From an uncultured Alphaproteobacteria bacterium (lineage in GTDB: Bacteria > Pseudomonadota > Alphaproteobacteria > Puniceispirillales > Marisalimonadaceae): a stretch of 35,797 bases of DNA. The notes under the pieces are model-generated. The model was not told the origin of the DNA and did no database searches. It worked only from the letters and a program-made list of their open reading frames with translations. Positions 1 through 17,355 of this stretch are shown one piece after another. The position numbers were made by a program, and so were the translations under genes. The stretch is from the NCBI GenBank assembly GCA_937142855.1, contig CAKZQZ010000048.1, positions 1-35,797 of the forward strand. Direction: 5' to 3'. Every line of letters begins with the position of its first letter. Within the stretch, counting starts at the first letter, position 1.

Positions 1-3000
1 ACACCAGAAACAGAGGTCTCAACATATGTAGCGTTTCCTATTTGCTTTAATCCGTTTTGGTTGTTAAAATTAACCATCACAAGTCTTCCCAGAGCGATAT
101 TAAGTCCGTTGGTATAGTTTGCACTAACCAATCCGTTAGCTGCAATATCTAGTCCATCCAACTTACCAACTGTCTGACCATCTTGAGATACTGATCTAAC
201 ATTAAAGTCTGATGCAAACTGCGTTGAACCGTCAAAATTTAAGTCTAAATCAATTGAAAGTGCGTTTGTTCCAGCAGCAGCATCTGCGGCAAAGTCACCT
301 TGATACCCTACTTTTTGAACGGGACTGACTAAGTTACCTTGTGTATCAAATGTAAGTTCCCCTGGTCTTAAGAAAACCTTCGCAAATGTACCATCTGTAG
401 TAGGTGTCCACGCATTATCAGGAGCCAAAGTGGTTGTTGTACCCGCATCATTAACATAAAGTGACTGCCCAGTTGCTGAAGTAGCTGTAGTGTTAGCCAT
501 ATTAACAAATGAAGGCGTTGTACCTGTTACCAGCTCAAGGTTATCTAATCCCATACGTGAACTTCCAGATACAAATATTTTACTATTTAATCCTGTAGTA
601 CCAGTCGTAAATGAAAAAGAATTACTTATGGTATCATATGACACTGTTACACCGTTAACAGTATTACCAGAAGGATCTTCCATTTGATTAATCCTTGATT
701 GAAGTGCTGTGGCTAAGGAAGTTCCATTGTAGACGCCTTCAGGCACTTGAATAGCTGCAGTAATGTCGTTTACGTTAACAACAAATATTGTTTCTTCAGC
801 TGCGTCTGATAAGAAAAAATCTTCTGATAAATCTTCGTTTGATGTCTTACCGCTTAAAACCGCTGGAGAAGATTCAAGACCCTTTCCTGCAGTATCGGCT
901 GTGACAGTCGTGATACCATTGGTTGCATTAATACCTAACAAAGCGCTTGTTCCACCAGTTCCTTCAGTAGAAGCTGTTGCCACACCATCGACAATTGCCA
1001 ATCTACCAATTTCAATATTTGAGGATGCTTGACCAGCATCACCCACTCCAACAGCTGAGTTAGCAGGGATGTTTTCACCAGTGGATCCACTGGCAATACT
1101 AAATCTTCGTGTTAAGTTATTATATGATACTTCTACGCCATAAGCTCTTTGTGTGTCTGCAGCTATTTGGTCTCCAGTAAAAAGAACTGATTCTGCTTTT
1201 AATTCAGCTCCACCACCAATATTTGAAGAAGCTTTGTTACTTTGTGTCTTTAAACCTAGAGCATTGGTATTATTGCCTTCACCTGGACCATAGGCTGAAA
1301 AAGAGAACATTTTACTTGGAGTAGACGTACCAATTTTTGAGGGGATACCTTGAAAAGTAAAATTCTGTCCTGAAATATCATAAGCTATTTTTAAAGCAGG
1401 ATCATTCTCATCAACCCAATCATCTGTATTAGAGACATCTTGAGTTATAATCGCATCAATCTCGTGTTGTGCAGCAGTTGTACCACCAACTCCTCTGGTT
1501 AGACCAGTAAAGCTAGTTGCTGTTTTGCCAGTATAAGCAATTAACTCATTACCTATTCTAATAAATCCATTACTCTCAAAATCTGCTGTTGAGTCAACTG
1601 TTAAAGTCGTGCCTGTAGCAGTTAACTGGGCTGCAATATCTGTTTTTCTTTGAGATAAACCTAAGCTATCTACACTATCTAATAAACTAATTTCAGTTGA
1701 TGCAGTAACAGAATTACTCTCAGTATTGTATGCTGCTCTGGTAATACCAGTCAAAGTAGTAGCTGTTTTTCCTGTATAAGTTATAATTTCATTTCCTAAT
1801 TTAAACTTACCGGGGTTATCAGCAGTTGCATCAGTAAAACCGGCAGTAGAACCAACATTCAAAATTTCTGAATCTGCTGGTAAAAATGAAATTGAGGTGT
1901 TGTCAGCAATAGCAGCAGTTGTCGCCGCGCTAATTGTAATTGTAGTGCCGTTTACATTTGTGACTGTTGTTCCAGCAGTAACTCCTTCAACCTCCACAAC
2001 ATCGCCAACTGATATGTTTGTATTAGCATCAACAACTATAGTTGTAGCACCTTGAGCAACGGCACCATTATTTAAAACTTGTGCACCTAGACCATCGCCA
2101 TCTACAAAATTTAATTCTCCGCCATATATGTTAGCAGTTGTGTTTGCACTTGACGTAATTGAAGTTCCAGAAACAGCTGCTACAGTTGTGCCTGTAGCAA
2201 TCCCTGTTCCATAAACCAAATCACCGACTGCTATATTAGTTGCGTCAGCTACAACTATTCCAGTTTGTCCTGTAGCACCAGTACCTATAGTATGGTTACT
2301 TGACATAAATGAAACTTTTGTACCTGTAGCCGTTGTTGTCGTTCCTGTTAAATTTGCTGTAGTTACTGCGCTCAAAGTGACTGTAGATGTATCGTGATTA
2401 ATTGCACTTACATATGTACCAGCAGTTATACCTGCACCAACTACAATATCACCAACTCTAATGCCATTTGTTCCACCATCGACTACAAGAGCTGTTGTTC
2501 CAGCCGTAGATGCTCCTGTTTTTTCATATATAACATTTGTGCCTTCACTTGGAGCATTAGTCGCTCTTGTCGATGGAACTGATGATAAAGTTGTATTTCT
2601 TAGAATGTCTTTAAAGCCACTCATTATACCATCAGAAAAATCAACTGATTTTACAGTAGCGTCATCAAGAGCAGCTGCTGCAGTCGTTCCGTTTGCTCCT
2701 CTAGTAATACCAGTAAAAGTTGTAGCTGTAGTACCAGTATACGATATTTGTTCAGATCCAATTAATAAAGTACCTGATGATGGAAATCCTGCTGTTGTAT
2801 CAACAGTAATTACACCTGCACCTGTTGCAGGATTATTTGCAGATGCAATCGCACCATTAAGCAAAGTATCCGGCTGTTTAAGGTCTTTGTTTAAGTATGC
2901 GTGTTTATTAAGTTCTTTTAAAACAATCCTATTACTTCCAAAATGCTCTGTTTGTCCTGAAAATATACCTGTTCCACCTTCAAAATAGGCAGTTACGTCC

Positions 3001-4943
3001 TTAGATTCAGTATGCAAAACTTTTATTTTTGTATCGGTAATATTAATAGCAGCTGTTGAATCAGATTTAAGATTTAAAAATTCATTTCCATTTGCGTCTG
3101 TACCAGCGCTTGAAACTGAAAATTTTGCACCGTTATATTTCAAATCGTTAGCTGTAGAAGTAGAAGTATCAAACTCTCCAGCAAGATATACTTCCGTTGG
3201 AAAACTTGTTGAACTGATAGAATTATCAGCGTCATTAATGTATATTTTTAAAGTACCACTAGTATCTTGTACCATCGTGTTTCCACCTACAGCAGTCACG
3301 TCTAAAGCTTTGTCAAAAACTTTTAATGTAGGAGAGGCATTATAATAACTATGAAGTAAAAATTTTTCTTCAGTGGTAACGTTGTTTTCATCCGCTAAAT
3401 CCAAAGAAGGTTTTTTATAATTAAAGCTTAAAACTTCTGTTTCTTTAATGGCACCAGATAAAGCTTTACCAGTTACTCTATTAAATAAAGATGAATTTAC
3501 ACCATAAGTTGAGGAATTGTTTGTTGAACCATCTGCTGAAACAGCTGCTCTGTTTAATGCATCATTAATTCTTAATTGAGCATGAGCTAAAAACTCTTCC
3601 CTAGTAAAGTTTGGCGAAGCCACGTTTTCAATACCACTAGTAGTAGTAAATAATTTGTCAGTTACAAAACTATCCTGCATTAAATCTACATTTATAGCCG
3701 ATAATGTTTGTATCTCGTCATTATTATCAAGTTGGTTGAATTGTATTGAAAAACTACCATCAGTAACAGGATCTATTGCTAATTTAGCATCATCTCCGAG
3801 CCCAGAATTAATAGCTCTTTGAACCTCAGAAGCCAATGTTGCTGCTGTATAAGTACCTGGTCTTATGTCTATACTCTTAAAGCCAGCACTACCTGTTGTA
3901 TCATCTACTCTGATTGTAAGAAAATCTTTTCCCCAGTATGTTGATTTATTTAGAGTTGGGTTAGCCTCATAAGTTGTATTATATTGTAAAGGATCAGTTA
4001 CTACAGTTATAGATGGAGCGGTTGCTGTAAAAGCTGCATCTTCTAAAACAGTTGATGTAACTGTTGCTGACTTAGACACTGTCTTATTGGATAAATCGTC
4101 TAAATAAAATAGAGGCTGAGTCTGAGCAACTGAAATAATTTGAGGCTTTTCATTCATAGGTATAATTTGACCAAATCTATCGACAACAAGTGTTTGTCCA
4201 GTTGGTGATATAGCCTCGGTTAATGATGGCTGAACCTCTCTGCCATCAACAATAAATTTTGTTTGATACTTATGTGTTGCTTCATTTCCTTGAGCAGCTT
4301 GCGTTTTAATGAAATAGGCTGTTGCAATCACAGGATTACCAAGGTTATCAAAGATCGTAACAGATGTTGATGAATTAAATGTTGCTGGATTTGCAGGATC
4401 GAAGTCGTCAGCAGAAGCAAATACTGTAGACGAAGCTGGTAGATTAACCGCCAACTCTAAGTTATCTGTTTTTTTGGCTTCACCAGCTTCCAATTCCAAT
4501 TTAAGAGGCTGGGCGTCAGCAATTTCACCACCTTGGACAGATCCATCGTCAGAAACAGGAAGTGCGAGCACAAACTGACCTGCCGAGTCAACAACGTATC
4601 TATCATTATTTACTGAAAAAGAACCGTTCCTAGTATAAACAGTTTGGTTAGTCGTTAATGACGGCTTCAATGCAAAAAAGCCCTGACCTGAAATCGCCAT
4701 ATCAAGAGCATTAAGAGATGATGAGACGTTACCTTGTGTAAATTGCTGCTTAATTCCTTTTAATATTGTACCAGAACCAATAGAGGATGAACTGTTTTGT
4801 AATGGAGAGGTCGCAAAAATATCACCAAATTCAGCTTTACTTCTTTTATAACCTGTCGTTGCAACGTTAGCTATGTTGTTTGAAGTAGCTGAAATATCAG
4901 CCTGCGATCCGTTTAGTCCAGTAAGAGCGGTATAAAATGACAT
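1..4943 (-). CDS. flgE: giant flagellar hook protein FlgE (3' end outside window)
   Basis: Polymerises into the extracellular flagellar hook. The frame opens at the ATG at 4943-4941, behind an AGGAGAA ribosome site, and I found no stop down to position 3, giving at least 1647 codons. The N-terminus has the rod/hook signature (SNNIANVATTGYKRS, residues 23-37) and the usual ALDMAISGQGFF segment. The last residues in the window show the classical FlgE C-terminal region (STQFAS, QDGQTVGKLDGL, YTNGLNIALG, NQNGLKQIGN, ETSVSG). Only about 60-80 residues should therefore be missing. Many FlgE proteins are about 400 residues. The excess here lies in the exposed middle: two flagellin IN-like segments (near residues 340-400 and 1370-1430) and six repeated modules between residues 710 and 1160. 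It is the last visible gene of flgBCDE, 24 nt after flgD. Identity is secure; the insert's function is unknown. Confidence 0.95.
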   Translation of the reverse strand, partial: MSFYTALTGLNGSQADISATSNNIANVATTGYKRSKAEFGDIFATSPLQNSSSSIGSGTILKGIKQQFTQGNVSSSLNALDMAISGQGFFALKPSLTTNQTVYTRNGSFSVNNDRYVVDSAGQFVLALPVSDDGSVQGGEIADAQPLKLELEAGEAKKTDNLELAVNLPASSTVFASADDFDPANPATFNSSTSVTIFDNLGNPVIATAYFIKTQAAQGNEATHKYQTKFIVDGREVQPSLTEAISPTGQTLVVDRFGQIIPMNEKPQIISVAQTQPLFYLDDLSNKTVSKSATVTSTVLEDAAFTATAPSITVVTDPLQYNTTYEANPTLNKSTYWGKDFLTIRVDDTTGSAGFKSIDIRPGTYTAATLASEVQRAINSGLGDDAKLAIDPVTDGSFSIQFNQLDNNDEIQTLSAINVDLMQDSFVTDKLFTTTSGIENVASPNFTREEFLAHAQLRINDALNRAAVSADGSTNNSSTYGVNSSLFNRVTGKALSGAIKETEVLSFNYKKPSLDLADENNVTTEEKFLLHSYYNASPTLKVFDKALDVTAVGGNTMVQDTSGTLKIYINDADNSISSTSFPTEVYLAGEFDTSTSTANDLKYNGAKFSVSSAGTDANGNEFLNLKSDSTAAINITDTKIKVLHTESKDVTAYFEGGTGIFSGQTEHFGSNRIVLKELNKHAYLNKDLKQPDTLLNGAIASANNPATGAGVITVDTTAGFPSSGTLLIGSEQISYTGTTATTFTGITRGANGTTAAAALDDATVKSVDFSDGIMSGFKDILRNTTLSSVPSTRATNAPSEGTNVIYEKTGASTAGTTALVVDGGTNGIRVGDIVVGAGITAGTYVSAINHDTSTVTLSAVTTANLTGTTTTATGTKVSFMSSNHTIGTGATGQTGIVVADATNIAVGDLVYGTGIATGTTVAAVSGTSITSSANTTANIYGGELNFVDGDGLGAQVLNNGAVAQGATTIVVDANTNISVGDVVEVEGVTAGTTVTNVNGTTITISAATTAAIADNTSISFLPADSEILNVGSTAGFTDATADNPGKFKLGNEIITYTGKTATTLTGITRAAYNTESNSVTASTEISLLDSVDSLGLSQRKTDIAAQLTATGTTLTVDSTADFESNGFIRIGNELIAYTGKTATSFTGLTRGVGGTTAAQHEIDAIITQDVSNTDDWVDENDPALKIAYDISGQNFTFQGIPSKIGTSTPSKMFSFSAYGPGEGNNTNALGLKTQSNKASSNIGGGAELKAESVLFTGDQIAADTQRAYGVEVSYNNLTRRFSIASGSTGENIPANSAVGVGDAGQASSNIEIGRLAIVDGVATASTEGTGGTSALLGINATNGITTVTADTAGKGLESSPAVLSGKTSNEDLSEDFFLSDAAEETIFVVNVNDITAAIQVPEGVYNGTSLATALQSRINQMEDPSGNTVNGVTVSYDTISNSFSFTTGTTGLNSKIFVSGSSRMGLDNLELVTGTTPSFVNMANTTATSATGQSLYVNDAGTTTTLAPDNAWTPTTDGTFAKVFLRPGELTFDTQGNLVSPVQKVGYQGDFAADAAAGTNALSIDLDLNFDGSTQFASDFNVRSVSQDGQTVGKLDGLDIAANGLVSANYTNGLNIALGRLVMVNFNNQNGLKQIGNATYVETSVSG
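1463..1871 (-). repeat. FlgE module A, copies 2 and 3
   Basis: Two further A modules, at 1871-1735 (about residues 1025-1070) and 1610-1463 (about 1112-1160). They share (V/D)STA(G/D)F, (L/I)GNE(I/L)I(T/A)YTGKTAT and TG(I/L)TR. Copy 2 has a short insertion after the STAGF motif. Copies 2 and 3 resemble each other more than copy 1. Confidence 0.8.
1904..2501 (-). repeat. FlgE module B, three tandem copies
   Basis: Three tandem modules of about 50 residues: B1 at 2501-2346, B2 at 2270-2121 and B3 at 2051-1904 (about residues 815-866, 892-940 and 965-1013). Each reads as [IL]VV(D/A)xxTN(G/I), VGD(I/L/V)V, (A/E)GI or GTGI or EGV, TxGTxV, then a valine/serine/threonine-rich strand ending near TTANL, TTANI or TTAAI. 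The pattern suggests a small repeated beta-sandwich. Nucleotide identity between copies is only moderate, so the duplications are not recent. Confidence 0.8.
2650..2816 (-). repeat. FlgE module A, copy 1
   Basis: In-frame protein module at about residues 710-765 of FlgE. It reads as [ILV]xVxxTAGF, then IGxExIxYTG, then TATxFTGITRG and a GTTAA end. The same pattern recurs at 1735-1871 and 1463-1610. Modules of this kind are common in marine phage structural proteins (general knowledge, not searched). Confidence 0.8.
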
Positions 4944-4967: not shown

Positions 4968-5660
4968 TTAATTCTTAAATCTGACAACTTGTGAAGGATC
5001 GACCATTCCATAGTCTTCTACTTCTAGCATAACGCCATTTTCAGTTTTGGAAGTTCCAGAAACGCTTGCAAAGACCTGGGTAGAAAGTTCTCCGGTGTCA
5101 CCTACATTGCCTGTAAACGCTCTAATAGTTATAGGTACAGTTGAAGACTTAATATCTTCTGGTAAATCTTTCCATTCAAACCCTACCAAGCCAGCTTTTT
5201 GTGTGCCTAATGTATCTTGATGCAAGACTTCGCCTTCACTATTTTCGAAAATAATATTTAAGTTTGACGCTGTATCAGGTAAATCGACTACTCCACTTAT
5301 AACACCATCCTTATCGGGTCTAGCAAACTTTCCAGGAACTAATACAGAATGGCCCATTAATTGAGTTGTGGAGGCAATCCTCATTTCTGAGAGTTGCTCA
5401 CTAACGGATTTCATAGTTTGATCCATAGAAGTTATACCGGTGACTGTAGAAAATTGTGCCATCTGAGCTATAAAATCAGCATTATCTACTGGTGCAAAAG
5501 GATCTTGATTTTGAAGCTGTGTCGTCATGAGTTTCAAAAAGTCCTCTTGTCCCAATTGATCTTTTGTTTCCTTAGGGGCAAACTTTTCTTTTGAAGAATT
5601 TATGCCTAATTTATCTAAAATGTTATTCAGTGATTGATTTGAAGAGTTTATTTCAGACAT
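4968..5660 (-). CDS. flgD: flagellar hook assembly (cap) protein FlgD
   Basis: Hook-cap scaffold: it caps the growing hook so that FlgE subunits can fold and insert, and is replaced once the hook is finished. The product is 230 residues, a normal family length. The conserved N-terminal FlgD motif is at residues 39-58 (EDFLKLMTTQL, then NQDPFAPVDN), followed by FIAQMAQFSTVTGI. The rest reads as the Ig-like/Tudor-like C-terminal region, with GQEV-type positions replaced by PGKFARPDKDG and a typical ending VDPSQVVRF. It lies 9 nt after flgC and 24 nt before flgE, so co-transcription is likely. A giant hook subunit downstream means this cap must accommodate unusually large FlgE monomers. Confidence 0.96.
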   Translation of the reverse strand: MSEINSSNQSLNNILDKLGINSSKEKFAPKETKDQLGQEDFLKLMTTQLQNQDPFAPVDNADFIAQMAQFSTVTGITSMDQTMKSVSEQLSEMRIASTTQLMGHSVLVPGKFARPDKDGVISGVVDLPDTASNLNIIFENSEGEVLHQDTLGTQKAGLVGFEWKDLPEDIKSSTVPITIRAFTGNVGDTGELSTQVFASVSGTSKTENGVMLEVEDYGMVDPSQVVRFKN

Positions 5661-5669
5661 TATTTTTCC

Positions 5670-6083
5670 TTATTTTCCAATATTTAAAGTTCGCATAGTT
5701 AATGCTCTTAGAGTGGTAATTACTTCGACATTATTCTGGTATTGTCTTGATGCTTCCATCATATCAACCATTTCCTCGTCTACATTGACTGCAGCTTTAT
5801 ATATGTAACCTGCTTCATCAGCAGCTGGGTGAGCTGGCATATATGACTTAATAGGCTCCCTACCTATTTCCTGAACTTCAACCGCATCGACCGTAGCAAT
5901 ACCATTTTTTTTGACTAAATCACTATATTGAGTTTCAAAGATTGGCTTTAAAGGTCTGTAAGTTGTTTTAGGGTCACCCGTAGTTGAACCAGCATTAGCT
6001 AGGTTTGAAGCAACAGTATTTAATCTAACCAACTGTGCGGCCATTGCTCTACCCGCAATATCATAGACTGATTTAATATCCAT
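5670..6083 (-). CDS. flgC: flagellar basal-body rod protein FlgC
   Basis: Proximal rod protein of the flagellar basal body, exported by the flagellar type III system and placed in the periplasmic rod. At 137 residues it has normal length. The N-terminal rod signature is at about residues 11-36 (RLNTVASNLANAGST), the mid-protein YRPLKPIFE is typical, and the C-terminal helix has EEMVDMMEASRQYQNNVEV. Its ATG shares one base with the flgB stop (TAATG overlap at 6083), indicating translational coupling. It belongs to the flgBCDE operon behind the sigma-54 promoter at 6509-6524. Confidence 0.97.
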   Translation of the reverse strand: MDIKSVYDIAGRAMAAQLVRLNTVASNLANAGSTTGDPKTTYRPLKPIFETQYSDLVKKNGIATVDAVEVQEIGREPIKSYMPAHPAADEAGYIYKAAVNVDEEMVDMMEASRQYQNNVEVITTLRALTMRTLNIGK

Positions 6084-6469
6084 TATTCACCCCTAATTGC
6101 AGACATGATTTTATTTATTTTCCCATTTAGAAAATTAACAGTGGATGAGTATCTCATTGAATTTTCTGCAAATTGCATCTGCTCAACTGCTAATTCTACT
6201 GTATTTCCATCAAGTGATGTGATCAGAGGTTCTCTATAAGAAACCTCGTTGAAGGATTTTCCTGAATTATGAACAATATGACTTTCATGGGATGTCTTAA
6301 TAGGACCGTCTCTATCTGCTTTCTTTAATTCATCTAAGAAACTAATATCCCTAGCTTTGTAATTAGGGGTAGCAGCATTAGCTATGTTAGAAGCTAAAAT
6401 ATTATTACGCTTGCCTCTTAATTGTAAGGCTTTTGAATAAAAAGATAATTGATCCTTAATCGCATCCAT
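6083..6469 (-). CDS. flgB: flagellar basal-body rod protein FlgB
   Basis: Proximal rod subunit of the basal body and first gene of the flgBCDE operon. The 128-residue product has the family signature near residues 18-44 (RNNILASNIANAATPNYKAR) and a C-terminal region (AVEQMQFAENSMRYSSTVNFL) typical of FlgB. The start lies about 30 nt downstream of the transcription start predicted from the sigma-54 promoter at 6509-6524, leaving a short leader. Confidence 0.97.
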   Translation of the reverse strand: MDAIKDQLSFYSKALQLRGKRNNILASNIANAATPNYKARDISFLDELKKADRDGPIKTSHESHIVHNSGKSFNEVSYREPLITSLDGNTVELAVEQMQFAENSMRYSSTVNFLNGKINKIMSAIRGE

Positions 6470-16551: not shown

Positions 16552-17355
16552 TTAACCATCAATAAGTCTCTTAGAGATGTCAATTTCTGTTTGAAGTAAC
16601 CGTGAAACACCGGAAAAAGCTTGCTGAGTTTTCAACATAGTTACCATTTCTGACGTAATATCAACATTTGCTCTTTCTAGATTTCCAGCGTTAATCTTCC
16701 CAAAAGAGCCGTTCATAGGTATTCCAAACGTAGGTAATCCAGATTTATTATTATTTTGAAAGCGGTTGTTTCCTACTGGTGTTAGTCCAGGACCATTTAC
16801 AAAAGAAGCTAATGCGAAACTACCAATAACGACTTCTTCATCAAGTCCGTATGTTGCCGTTATTTTGCCGTTAGACGCTACATTAACATTTGAAATAATT
16901 GAGGTTGTTTGATCAGCGTTTTGCTTTGTTGTTGGAATTATTAAATTTTTTAAAACAGCTTTTTCATCTCCTAAGAAACCCATAACTTTCAATCCATCAT
17001 TTGTAACCACTTCACCTTTTGAAGTAATATTAAATGAGCCATCTCTTGTAAAAAAAGGTGTGTCTACTTGATCACCTTGTATTACTGGAAAAAACCCAGT
17101 ACCGGTAATAGCAAGATCAAGCGCCCCTCCAGTTTCTTGAAGTGAACCTTGACTCATTTGTATACGAGGATCGCTTATCCCAACACCCTGACCAGAAAAT
17201 GTGTCTGGGTCTGTAGATTTATGAATAGAATAAATATGTTCAAAATTTGCGGTACTTTTTTTAAAAGCTGTACTATTTGCGTTAGCAATATTATTAGAGA
17301 CTATACCCATTTCTCTTGAGTTAGCATTTAAAGCACTTTTTAAAATTGATAACAT
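16552..17355 (-). CDS. FlgE/FlgF/FlgG-family rod or hook protein
   Basis: An axial flagellar protein of 267 residues. The N-terminal rod/hook motif is clear (MGIVSNNIANANSTAFKKS, about 17-35). It is followed by GSLQETGGALDLAITGTGFF, FFTRDGSFNI and a C-terminal ERANVDITSEMVTMLKTQQAFSGVSRLL. Its size fits FlgF or FlgG (about 240-265). The N-terminus lacks the usual FlgG ANNLANVNTTGFKR wording, and it stands outside flgBCDE, so I leave the subtype open; FlgF or a short FlgE paralogue are the main options. It has its own sigma-54 promoter at 17383-17398, which puts it in the same expression class as flgBCDE. Confidence 0.88.
   Translation of the reverse strand: MLSILKSALNANSREMGIVSNNIANANSTAFKKSTANFEHIYSIHKSTDPDTFSGQGVGISDPRIQMSQGSLQETGGALDLAITGTGFFPVIQGDQVDTPFFTRDGSFNITSKGEVVTNDGLKVMGFLGDEKAVLKNLIIPTTKQNADQTTSIISNVNVASNGKITATYGLDEEVVIGSFALASFVNGPGLTPVGNNRFQNNNKSGLPTFGIPMNGSFGKINAGNLERANVDITSEMVTMLKTQQAFSGVSRLLQTEIDISKRLIDG

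Follow-up and report, generated by a model that had tools for sequence, protein, structure and literature searches.

The giant flagellar hook protein FlgE encoded in the window probably carries decoration domains of a phage type in an insert that splits its D2 domain, where they would be exposed and exchangeable. The window is the whole stretch of DNA that we analysed (35,797 nucleotides). It is the entire contig C48 of an assembly of 2.32 Mb in 122 contigs. The flgE frame starts with an ATG at position 4943 on the minus strand and runs through 1647 stop-free codons to base 3, at the contig end. The genes stand in the order flgB-flgC-flgD-flgE, which places the giant flgE in the flg operon:

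3..4943 (minus strand): flgE, giant hook protein of the flagellum; 1647 aa lie in the window and the last 63 aa beyond the contig end
4044..4943 (minus strand): conserved N-terminal core of FlgE (Flg_bb_rod, D1, first FlgE_D2 part), residues 1-300
2844..4040 (minus strand): FlgE insert, conserved pre-module part, residues 302-700
2643..2822 (minus strand): module A copy 1, residues 708-767
2301..2501 (minus strand): module B copy 1, residues 815-881
2100..2270 (minus strand): module B copy 2, residues 892-948
1878..2051 (minus strand): module B copy 3, residues 965-1022
1680..1874 (minus strand): module A copy 2, residues 1024-1088
1437..1616 (minus strand): module A copy 3, residues 1110-1169
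411..1436 (minus strand): FlgE insert, conserved post-module part, residues 1170-1511
3..410 (minus strand): second FlgE_D2 part and beginning of the C-terminal core, residues 1512-1647
4968..5660 (minus strand): flgD, immediately upstream of flgE
5670..6083 (minus strand): flgC
6083..6469 (minus strand): flgB

The protein is a hook protein by its domains. PF00460, PF22692 and PF07559 (rod, hook D1 and FlgE_D2) all score above the Pfam cut-offs, TIGR03506 (the NCBIfam FlgE/F/G subfamily) reaches 204 bits against a cut-off of 70, and the closest relatives in the PDB are FlgE chains. The domains carried are those of a hook protein, not the N and C domains of a flagellin. As a whole the protein stays below the FlgE equivalog cut-off (best NF004240, 284.6 bits vs 472). 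We put this down to the large insert, since the best listed stretches span the N or the C end alone. Its FlgE relatives are mostly bacteria of the SAR116 cluster. The FlgE_D2 matches (about residues 168-301 and 1512-1589) only flank the modules, so the modules did not turn out to be nothing more than standard D2-type domains, an outcome for which a preliminary description of this DNA had allowed.

The open frame of 1647 codons given in that description is borne out. Of the "normal ends" it also claimed, the N-terminus stands, with its domain matches, whereas the C-terminus falls beyond the window's edge. It can be read from contig C24, which belongs to the same bin, overlaps flgE over 5078 bp without gaps at 85.5% DNA identity and supplies a complete version of 1710 aa; the last 60-80 residues, which were to be looked for in flanking sequence, are found there as the missing 63 aa. 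Downstream of flgE, C24 continues with flgF, G, H, I, J and K (translations judged by eye). Because C24 carries flgE, a second giant flgE in the genome was considered and rejected: C24 and C48 overlap end to end, and each relative locus has one flgE. In our reading C24 stems from another strain or species within the bin; a tandem duplication is the less likely alternative.

Two observations stand beside these. In the single cell AAA015-N04 (locus L045, 8001-12692) flgE lies in two frames, with a break near residue 400 that may be genuine or a sequencing error. In the window, another FlgE/F/G-family protein (16552-17355, minus strand, 267 aa) scores above the TIGR03506 cut-off at a distance from the flg operon, besides the apparent flgF and flgG already on C24.

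FlgE is here three to four times the usual size of a hook protein. A class-wide sample has FlgE_D2 in 78 of 144 genomes; the longest such frame beyond the window's own genome is 1302 aa and most are 400-600 aa. Among the nearest genomes, 39 of 61 have a FlgE_D2 match (own genome counted). Other families of the order have 12 FlgE frames of 1261-1576 aa and three shorter ones (221, 419 and 987 aa), which may be partial at contig ends. In the own genus FlgE frames reach 1747 aa. Giant FlgE is common to the order and longest in this genus.

The modules occupy the centre of the insert. We located them with HMMs built from their own copies, and the order A-B-B-B-A-A of the preliminary description is exact by HMM. 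Used as a query, a single A copy recovers the other two A copies at 45.4 and 22.5 bits, and a single B copy the other two B copies at 17.7 and 16.2 bits. The best scores from 500 shuffles of FlgE are 7.5 bits (A) and 9.0 bits (B), hence the repeats are beyond chance. Identity between copies ranges from 23/59 to 31/57 for A and from 27/57 to 30/58 for B. Among 37 module-bearing FlgE rows, 19 share the layout A-B-B-B-A-A, 18 have A-A-A-A, and there is no third layout; five further rows are fragments of partial frames, with no module match. Since the same layout recurs in 19 rows, nearly all of separate assemblies, the array is not an assembly artefact. Some of these rows carry the codes SCGC or AG-, which we take to denote single-cell genomes.

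The module segment is the most variable stretch of FlgE. In blocks of 50 residues, the 32 complete relatives are 44-72% identical over residues 701-1150, where most blocks have gaps, compared to 76% for 1151-1200 and 79-100% otherwise. The N-terminal core has 90-100% identity per block (32 complete homologues). Residues 302-700 are 79-95% identical per block in the family, and their fold is poorly predicted over much of the length.

This contrast bears on a mechanical explanation. The outer domains could contact their neighbours and build a thick, stiff hook for a filament of giant flagellin, with the modules as mere filler. The non-module insert is 76-95% conserved per block, as for contact surfaces. 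Other axial proteins of relatives are giant as well: FlgK frames reach 2243-2475 aa (2470 and 2243 aa among loci L155, L159, L154 and L156) and flagellin-like frames 981-1045 aa, of which those of L154 and L156 (1045 and 1032 aa) are without modules A or B. In Campylobacter, the available part of one report has D3 and D4 contributing inter-subunit contacts and robustness (PMC5097172). However, the modules are the least conserved part and differ in number and type, which fits a shared contact role poorly. We regard the mechanical explanation as rather unlikely for the whole, yet it may well be true for the conserved parts of the insert.

The array changes as a block. A tree of the flanks requires two layout changes, with five A-A-A-A rows nested within the A-B-B-B-A-A group. 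Compared with A-B-B-B-A-A rows (10 of the 19 were used), the nested rows have flanks that are 93.5% identical and cassettes that are 22.5% identical. Compared with distant A-A-A-A rows (12 of 13 used), the flanks are 88.1% and the cassettes 44.8% identical, with a maximum of 62.3%. The cassette from the first to the last A has been swapped across lineages. Synonymous distances in some close pairs are larger in the modules than in the flanks (1.16 vs 0.49 for L022-L029, 0.46 vs 0.19 for L018-L020), as expected from import; in others they are not, as in L032-L033 (0.11 vs 0.31).

The modules are under weaker constraint than the flanks. For 11 chosen pairs, dN/dS is 0.05-0.32 in the modules and 0.01-0.02 in the flanks, and the modules are higher in 11 of 11. 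All values lie below 1, and no positive selection on the modules was found in these pairs. The raised ratio is what one would expect from a slipped repeat, that is, an array expanding and contracting neutrally within a loop that tolerates it, without any function. Four things argue against such slippage: a module dN/dS below 1, merely two layouts in 37 rows, copies within one protein that are 39-54% identical (old rather than freshly slipped), and cassettes that transfer as units between proteins. We consider it very unlikely.

Where do such modules occur otherwise? The conserved module A pattern is found in at least 600 stretches in IMG/VR, of which 558 of 600 were confirmed. The best 80 viral copies of these at least 600 are 56-74% identical to module A, and the FlgE signature string NNIAN is absent from all frames of the 80 viral loci. 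The FlgE of the window itself matches phrog_4406, a virion structural protein, in three stretches (E 1.2e-15). We scanned 78 of the best 80 viral carriers against PHROG (two of more than 1300 aa were omitted); 73 match phrog_4406, 67 phrog_5107 and 23 phrog_3287. The phrog_4406 match is mainly module A itself. By contrast, phrog_5107 and phrog_3287 span most of the carrier (in the members whose ranges were seen), except for L134, where the match covers the last 397 of 774 residues. PHROG names phrog_5107 "amidase" and puts it in the lysis class. Among named phages, its relatives bear the labels tail structure, structural, stabilization, amidase or hypothetical, and two records carry the annotation nonribosomal peptide synthetase. 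In HMO-2011 the gene of phrog_5107 type comes after a "tail protein" gene. Because of these gene neighbours and the annotations of its relatives, we take phrog_5107 for a tail protein.

The two carriers of the viral locus L124 have their closest named relatives in Puniceispirillum phage HMO-2011, a SAR116 phage, with 50.2% identity over 100% of the query for the phrog_5107 member (gp44) and 56.5% over 74% for the other. HMO-2011 lacks module A in both genes, whereas both L124 genes contain it as a clean insert, and so does the single L057 gene that was aligned. Hence module A is a plug-in domain in phages too. Direct matches to named phages are marginal: the whole module segment hits 105 records, all below 60% identity, the best at E 3e-4. 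The 30 listed of these 105 all match on the third A copy, in proteins annotated as tail tube, tail, baseplate wedge, structural, hypothetical and, once, "large exoprotein". Searches of named phages with tblastn, using two module-length queries and one consensus, gave no good match.

Two viral loci with module A deserve separate mention. The module A region of L134 (3092-5413, plus strand) matches Pfam Rcc01698_C at E 0.0017, below the cut-off; the name is associated with gene transfer agents. L100 (1725-5870, plus strand) encodes a viral tail-fibre-like protein of 1382 aa that contains three A modules in addition to four stretches of CBM_5_12.

Predicted folds point in the same direction. The AlphaFold2 models were built on SAR116-only alignments. 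For the window FlgE, pLDDT is mostly 75-93 over residues of about 785-1165, with dips to 54, and for the third A module of the relative L030 it is 90-96. Over most of the remaining FlgE the models are poor, with a mean pLDDT of 62.6 (window) and 42.1 (L030). VIA-align places the third A module with phage VP1 (Z 10.6-11.0, rmsd 3.4-4.1), the Chi tail tip (8vjh; Z 10.3-10.5, rmsd 1.7, 74 aligned), the JBD30 baseplate (8rk3; Z 10.1, rmsd 1.9, 71 aligned) and the GP4 portal-tail (Z 9.9-10.2, rmsd 3.8-3.9). The third B module is placed with the Mystique tail tube (9n71; Z 10.6, rmsd 1.9, 69 aligned), the LKA1 tailspike (4ru4; Z 9.3, 68 aligned) and other tailspikes, the P22 coat (8i1v; Z 8.0, 68 aligned) and a GTA virion protein (Z 7.2). 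The Bridgette decoration protein reaches Z 8.8 on the B1-B2 stretch. Of the 392 viral matches from Foldseek, 68 reach E 0.001 or better; against the PDB, it gives no match at E 0.001 or below, conserved insert parts included.

The predicted fold of module A fits a phage tail or baseplate domain and that of module B a phage decoration or P22 insertion domain. For module B the phage relation rests mainly on the predicted fold. By sequence its best PDB match is weak (8eci, E 0.01). It has 20 relatives on viral contigs, and 6 of the 8 carriers scanned belong to virion or tail PHROG families; it was not found in the 80 viral module A loci. Module A, judged by sequence and predicted fold together, has its kin in a domain that phages use in tail and baseplate proteins. 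In the window it sits inside FlgE and not in a virion protein; it is a relative of a phage domain, not itself a phage protein. The resemblance to structural repeats of marine phages that had been suspected from the wording of the modules is thus supported, for module A by sequence and for the modules by predicted fold.

In bacteria the modules are narrowly distributed. At E 1e-4, 32 of the 98 genomes examined from the order have module A; every one of them belongs to the own family, and 0 of the 64 outside it have the module (some genomes are incomplete). Of the 32 positive genomes, 26 have it in FlgE-sized frames and six solely in frames of 447-694 aa. Module B (E 1e-6) is found in 16 of the 98 genomes, again in the own family only. 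At E 1e-7, module A is present in one of 288 genomes of a class sample, the own genome, and in four of 397 of a phylum sample, the own genome and three others. The carriers of these three match phage PHROGs, one of them as a tail fibre protein along 460 residues (E 1.4e-116). The other three of the four scanned frames match PHROG mainly via module A itself. Viral and genome sets are not normalised to each other, and the rarity of module A in cells relative to phages has to be read with this in mind.

A further protein of the own genome carries the domain. On contig C13 (locus L151, 5002-6342, minus strand) a 447-aa protein has one divergent module A (E 2e-8) and a signal-like N-terminus (judged by eye); it has no Pfam match, and an assignment to DUF2066 is unsupported. 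Frames of 447-482 aa with a match of module A type recur across the family.

Could the modules simply be a generic small extracellular beta domain, whose likeness to phages stems from common folds and turn motifs without any transfer? The domains are short, and in the VIA-align background an unrelated barrel (the N-terminal barrel of F1-ATPase) still reaches a Z of about 7. The secreted-looking 447-aa protein and its counterparts in the family also fit a domain of general use. Yet the identity of the best 80 viral copies listed goes beyond likeness at the level of the fold. Furthermore, beyond the own genome only 3 of 396 genomes of the phylum sample have module A, in PHROG-matching proteins (mainly via the module in three of the four frames), and the order genomes outside the family have none. 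A generic domain without transfer is therefore highly improbable to us.

The direction of transfer is less clear. In a tree of module A (60 columns) there are nine changes between flagellar and phage labels. The AU test does not reject one clade of all flagellar copies (p-AU 0.348), and the FlgE copies constrained to one clade scored above the free tree (p-AU 0.634). In view of these two values we abandoned a count of transfers from this tree. Transfer may have run from flagella to phages, or both may have drawn on a third source: the tree mixes flagellar and phage copies with a root that is not fixed, and the cultured HMO-2011, without the module in both tail-region genes, makes module A accessory in phages too. 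However, module A occurs in several families of phage tail, baseplate and fibre proteins but, phage-like proteins aside, in one bacterial family among those sampled. We think this origin unlikely.

The modules extend to other flagellar proteins. An A-A-A cassette is present in 5 of 27 FlgK frames of relatives' loci (in two of these 27 an array would not show, as the frames are too short) and in the flagellins of three genomes. Of these carriers, one frame (2470 aa) is confirmed as FlgK by Pfam, and two of the three flagellins as flagellin. The FlgK and flagellin genes of genome G003 have a stretch of 647 bp in common, 91.5% identical, and no other DNA match longer than 60 bp; across genomes, FlgK and flagellin are 85-86% identical in DNA. 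For comparison, the flagellins of G003 and G023 are 82.6% identical overall, and the FlgK of G003 and G012 94.7%. At the protein level, FlgK 583-1112 and flagellin 267-860 are 47% identical (low-complexity filter off). We read the sharing in G003, from these identities, as a probable recent exchange or conversion within one genome. The shared DNA shows that axial components of a single machine are able to swap domains. The window's genome has one flagellin with one module B, which similar frames in G061 and G062 also carry. The domain exchange between phage and hook that the preliminary description proposed, whatever its direction and the number of transfers, gains from the cassette swaps between lineages and from the FlgK-flagellin sharing.

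To explain these observations together, we favour a hook protein with a split D2. An insert of about 1200 residues separates the two parts of D2, and its centre is a hypervariable array of small beta domains like those that decorate phage tails, baseplates and spikes. By analogy with the extra domains D3 and D4 in Campylobacter, the array would face outward and be dispensable for hook polymerisation; therefore modules could be replaced without loss of function. SAR116 bacteria may have acquired the module domains from tail genes of marine phages, and the modules may now form an exchangeable coat on the hook, the hook-filament junction and the filament.

Exposure of the modules at the surface is inferred but plausible, because the insert splits D2 as D3 and D4 do in Campylobacter. 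Judging from work on the Campylobacter hook (PMC5097172; PMC5069557) and from flagellin structure, modules in the D2 insert of FlgE, in FlgK and in the central region of flagellin would all sit on the outer face of the axial structure. Being exchangeable, variable and on the outside, the modules suggest a surface role. Most likely, they diversify the exposed surface towards whatever binds the flagellum: phages, grazers or particles. Their role may be one in camouflage, adhesion or stiffness, and they may also affect phage recognition, as the preliminary description proposed. The same domains in two other parts of the flagellum of relatives suggest a common stock of surface modules on which both flagella and phages draw.

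In a more far-reaching version of this idea, a single pool of decoration modules would serve both SAR116 flagella and the tails of surrounding marine phages, with repeated two-way exchange owing to contact between phage and flagellum. Phages would dock on flagella or mimic them by means of the modules, or the host would carry modules of phage tails as decoys. HMO-2011-type phages, including the cultured SAR116 phage, would be the leading partner. We put this forward tentatively, as an unlikely but not negligible reading. If the favoured reading of exchangeable phage-type domains in a split D2 is true, it is a concrete instance of genes passing between the tails of phages and the flagella of bacteria in a lineage of the ocean, and the diversification of flagellar surfaces in response to phages becomes testable.

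Hook proteins with extra outer domains and giant flagellins are already known. Among the open-licence papers listed we found no report of a phage-virion-type exchangeable array across hook, hook junction and filament, and no open-licence paper that treats SAR116 together with FlgE. The FlgE of Campylobacter jejuni, an 865-aa protein whose D2 contains D3 and D4 as inserts, is alike in having extra outer domains in D2 and variability focused on the exposed extras. It differs in being half as long, yet it is called among the longest FlgE, and the available parts of the two papers do not mention phage-type repeat modules or cassette swaps (PMC5097172; PMC5069557). The giant flagellins of marine gammaproteobacteria (Bermanella, Oleibacter) are likewise giant axial proteins with a duplication of a central domain, according to the part of the report available, but they are filament proteins and the word "phage" is absent from its main text (PMC6248924).

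Solved phage domains are similar in shape. The folds of Chi, JBD30, GP4 and VP1 for module A, and of the Mystique tail tube, the P22 coat insertion domain and tailspikes for module B, match the predicted folds at Z 8-11, although sequence identity to the modules is 8-28% and a shared fold shows no function. A parallel in sequence is provided by the tail-region proteins of HMO-2011 type (PHROG 10775 "tail protein" and 5107 "amidase"). Isolates of this type have SAR116, SAR11 and Roseobacter as hosts, in the part of the source available (PMC9038755). The tail-region proteins differ from the hook in being phage proteins, and the cultured HMO-2011 is without the insert. In their relatives on viral contigs, module A forms a clean insert about 60-80 aa long, and 43 of the best 80 viral loci listed have both a 270-340-aa and a 430-600-aa carrier of module A.
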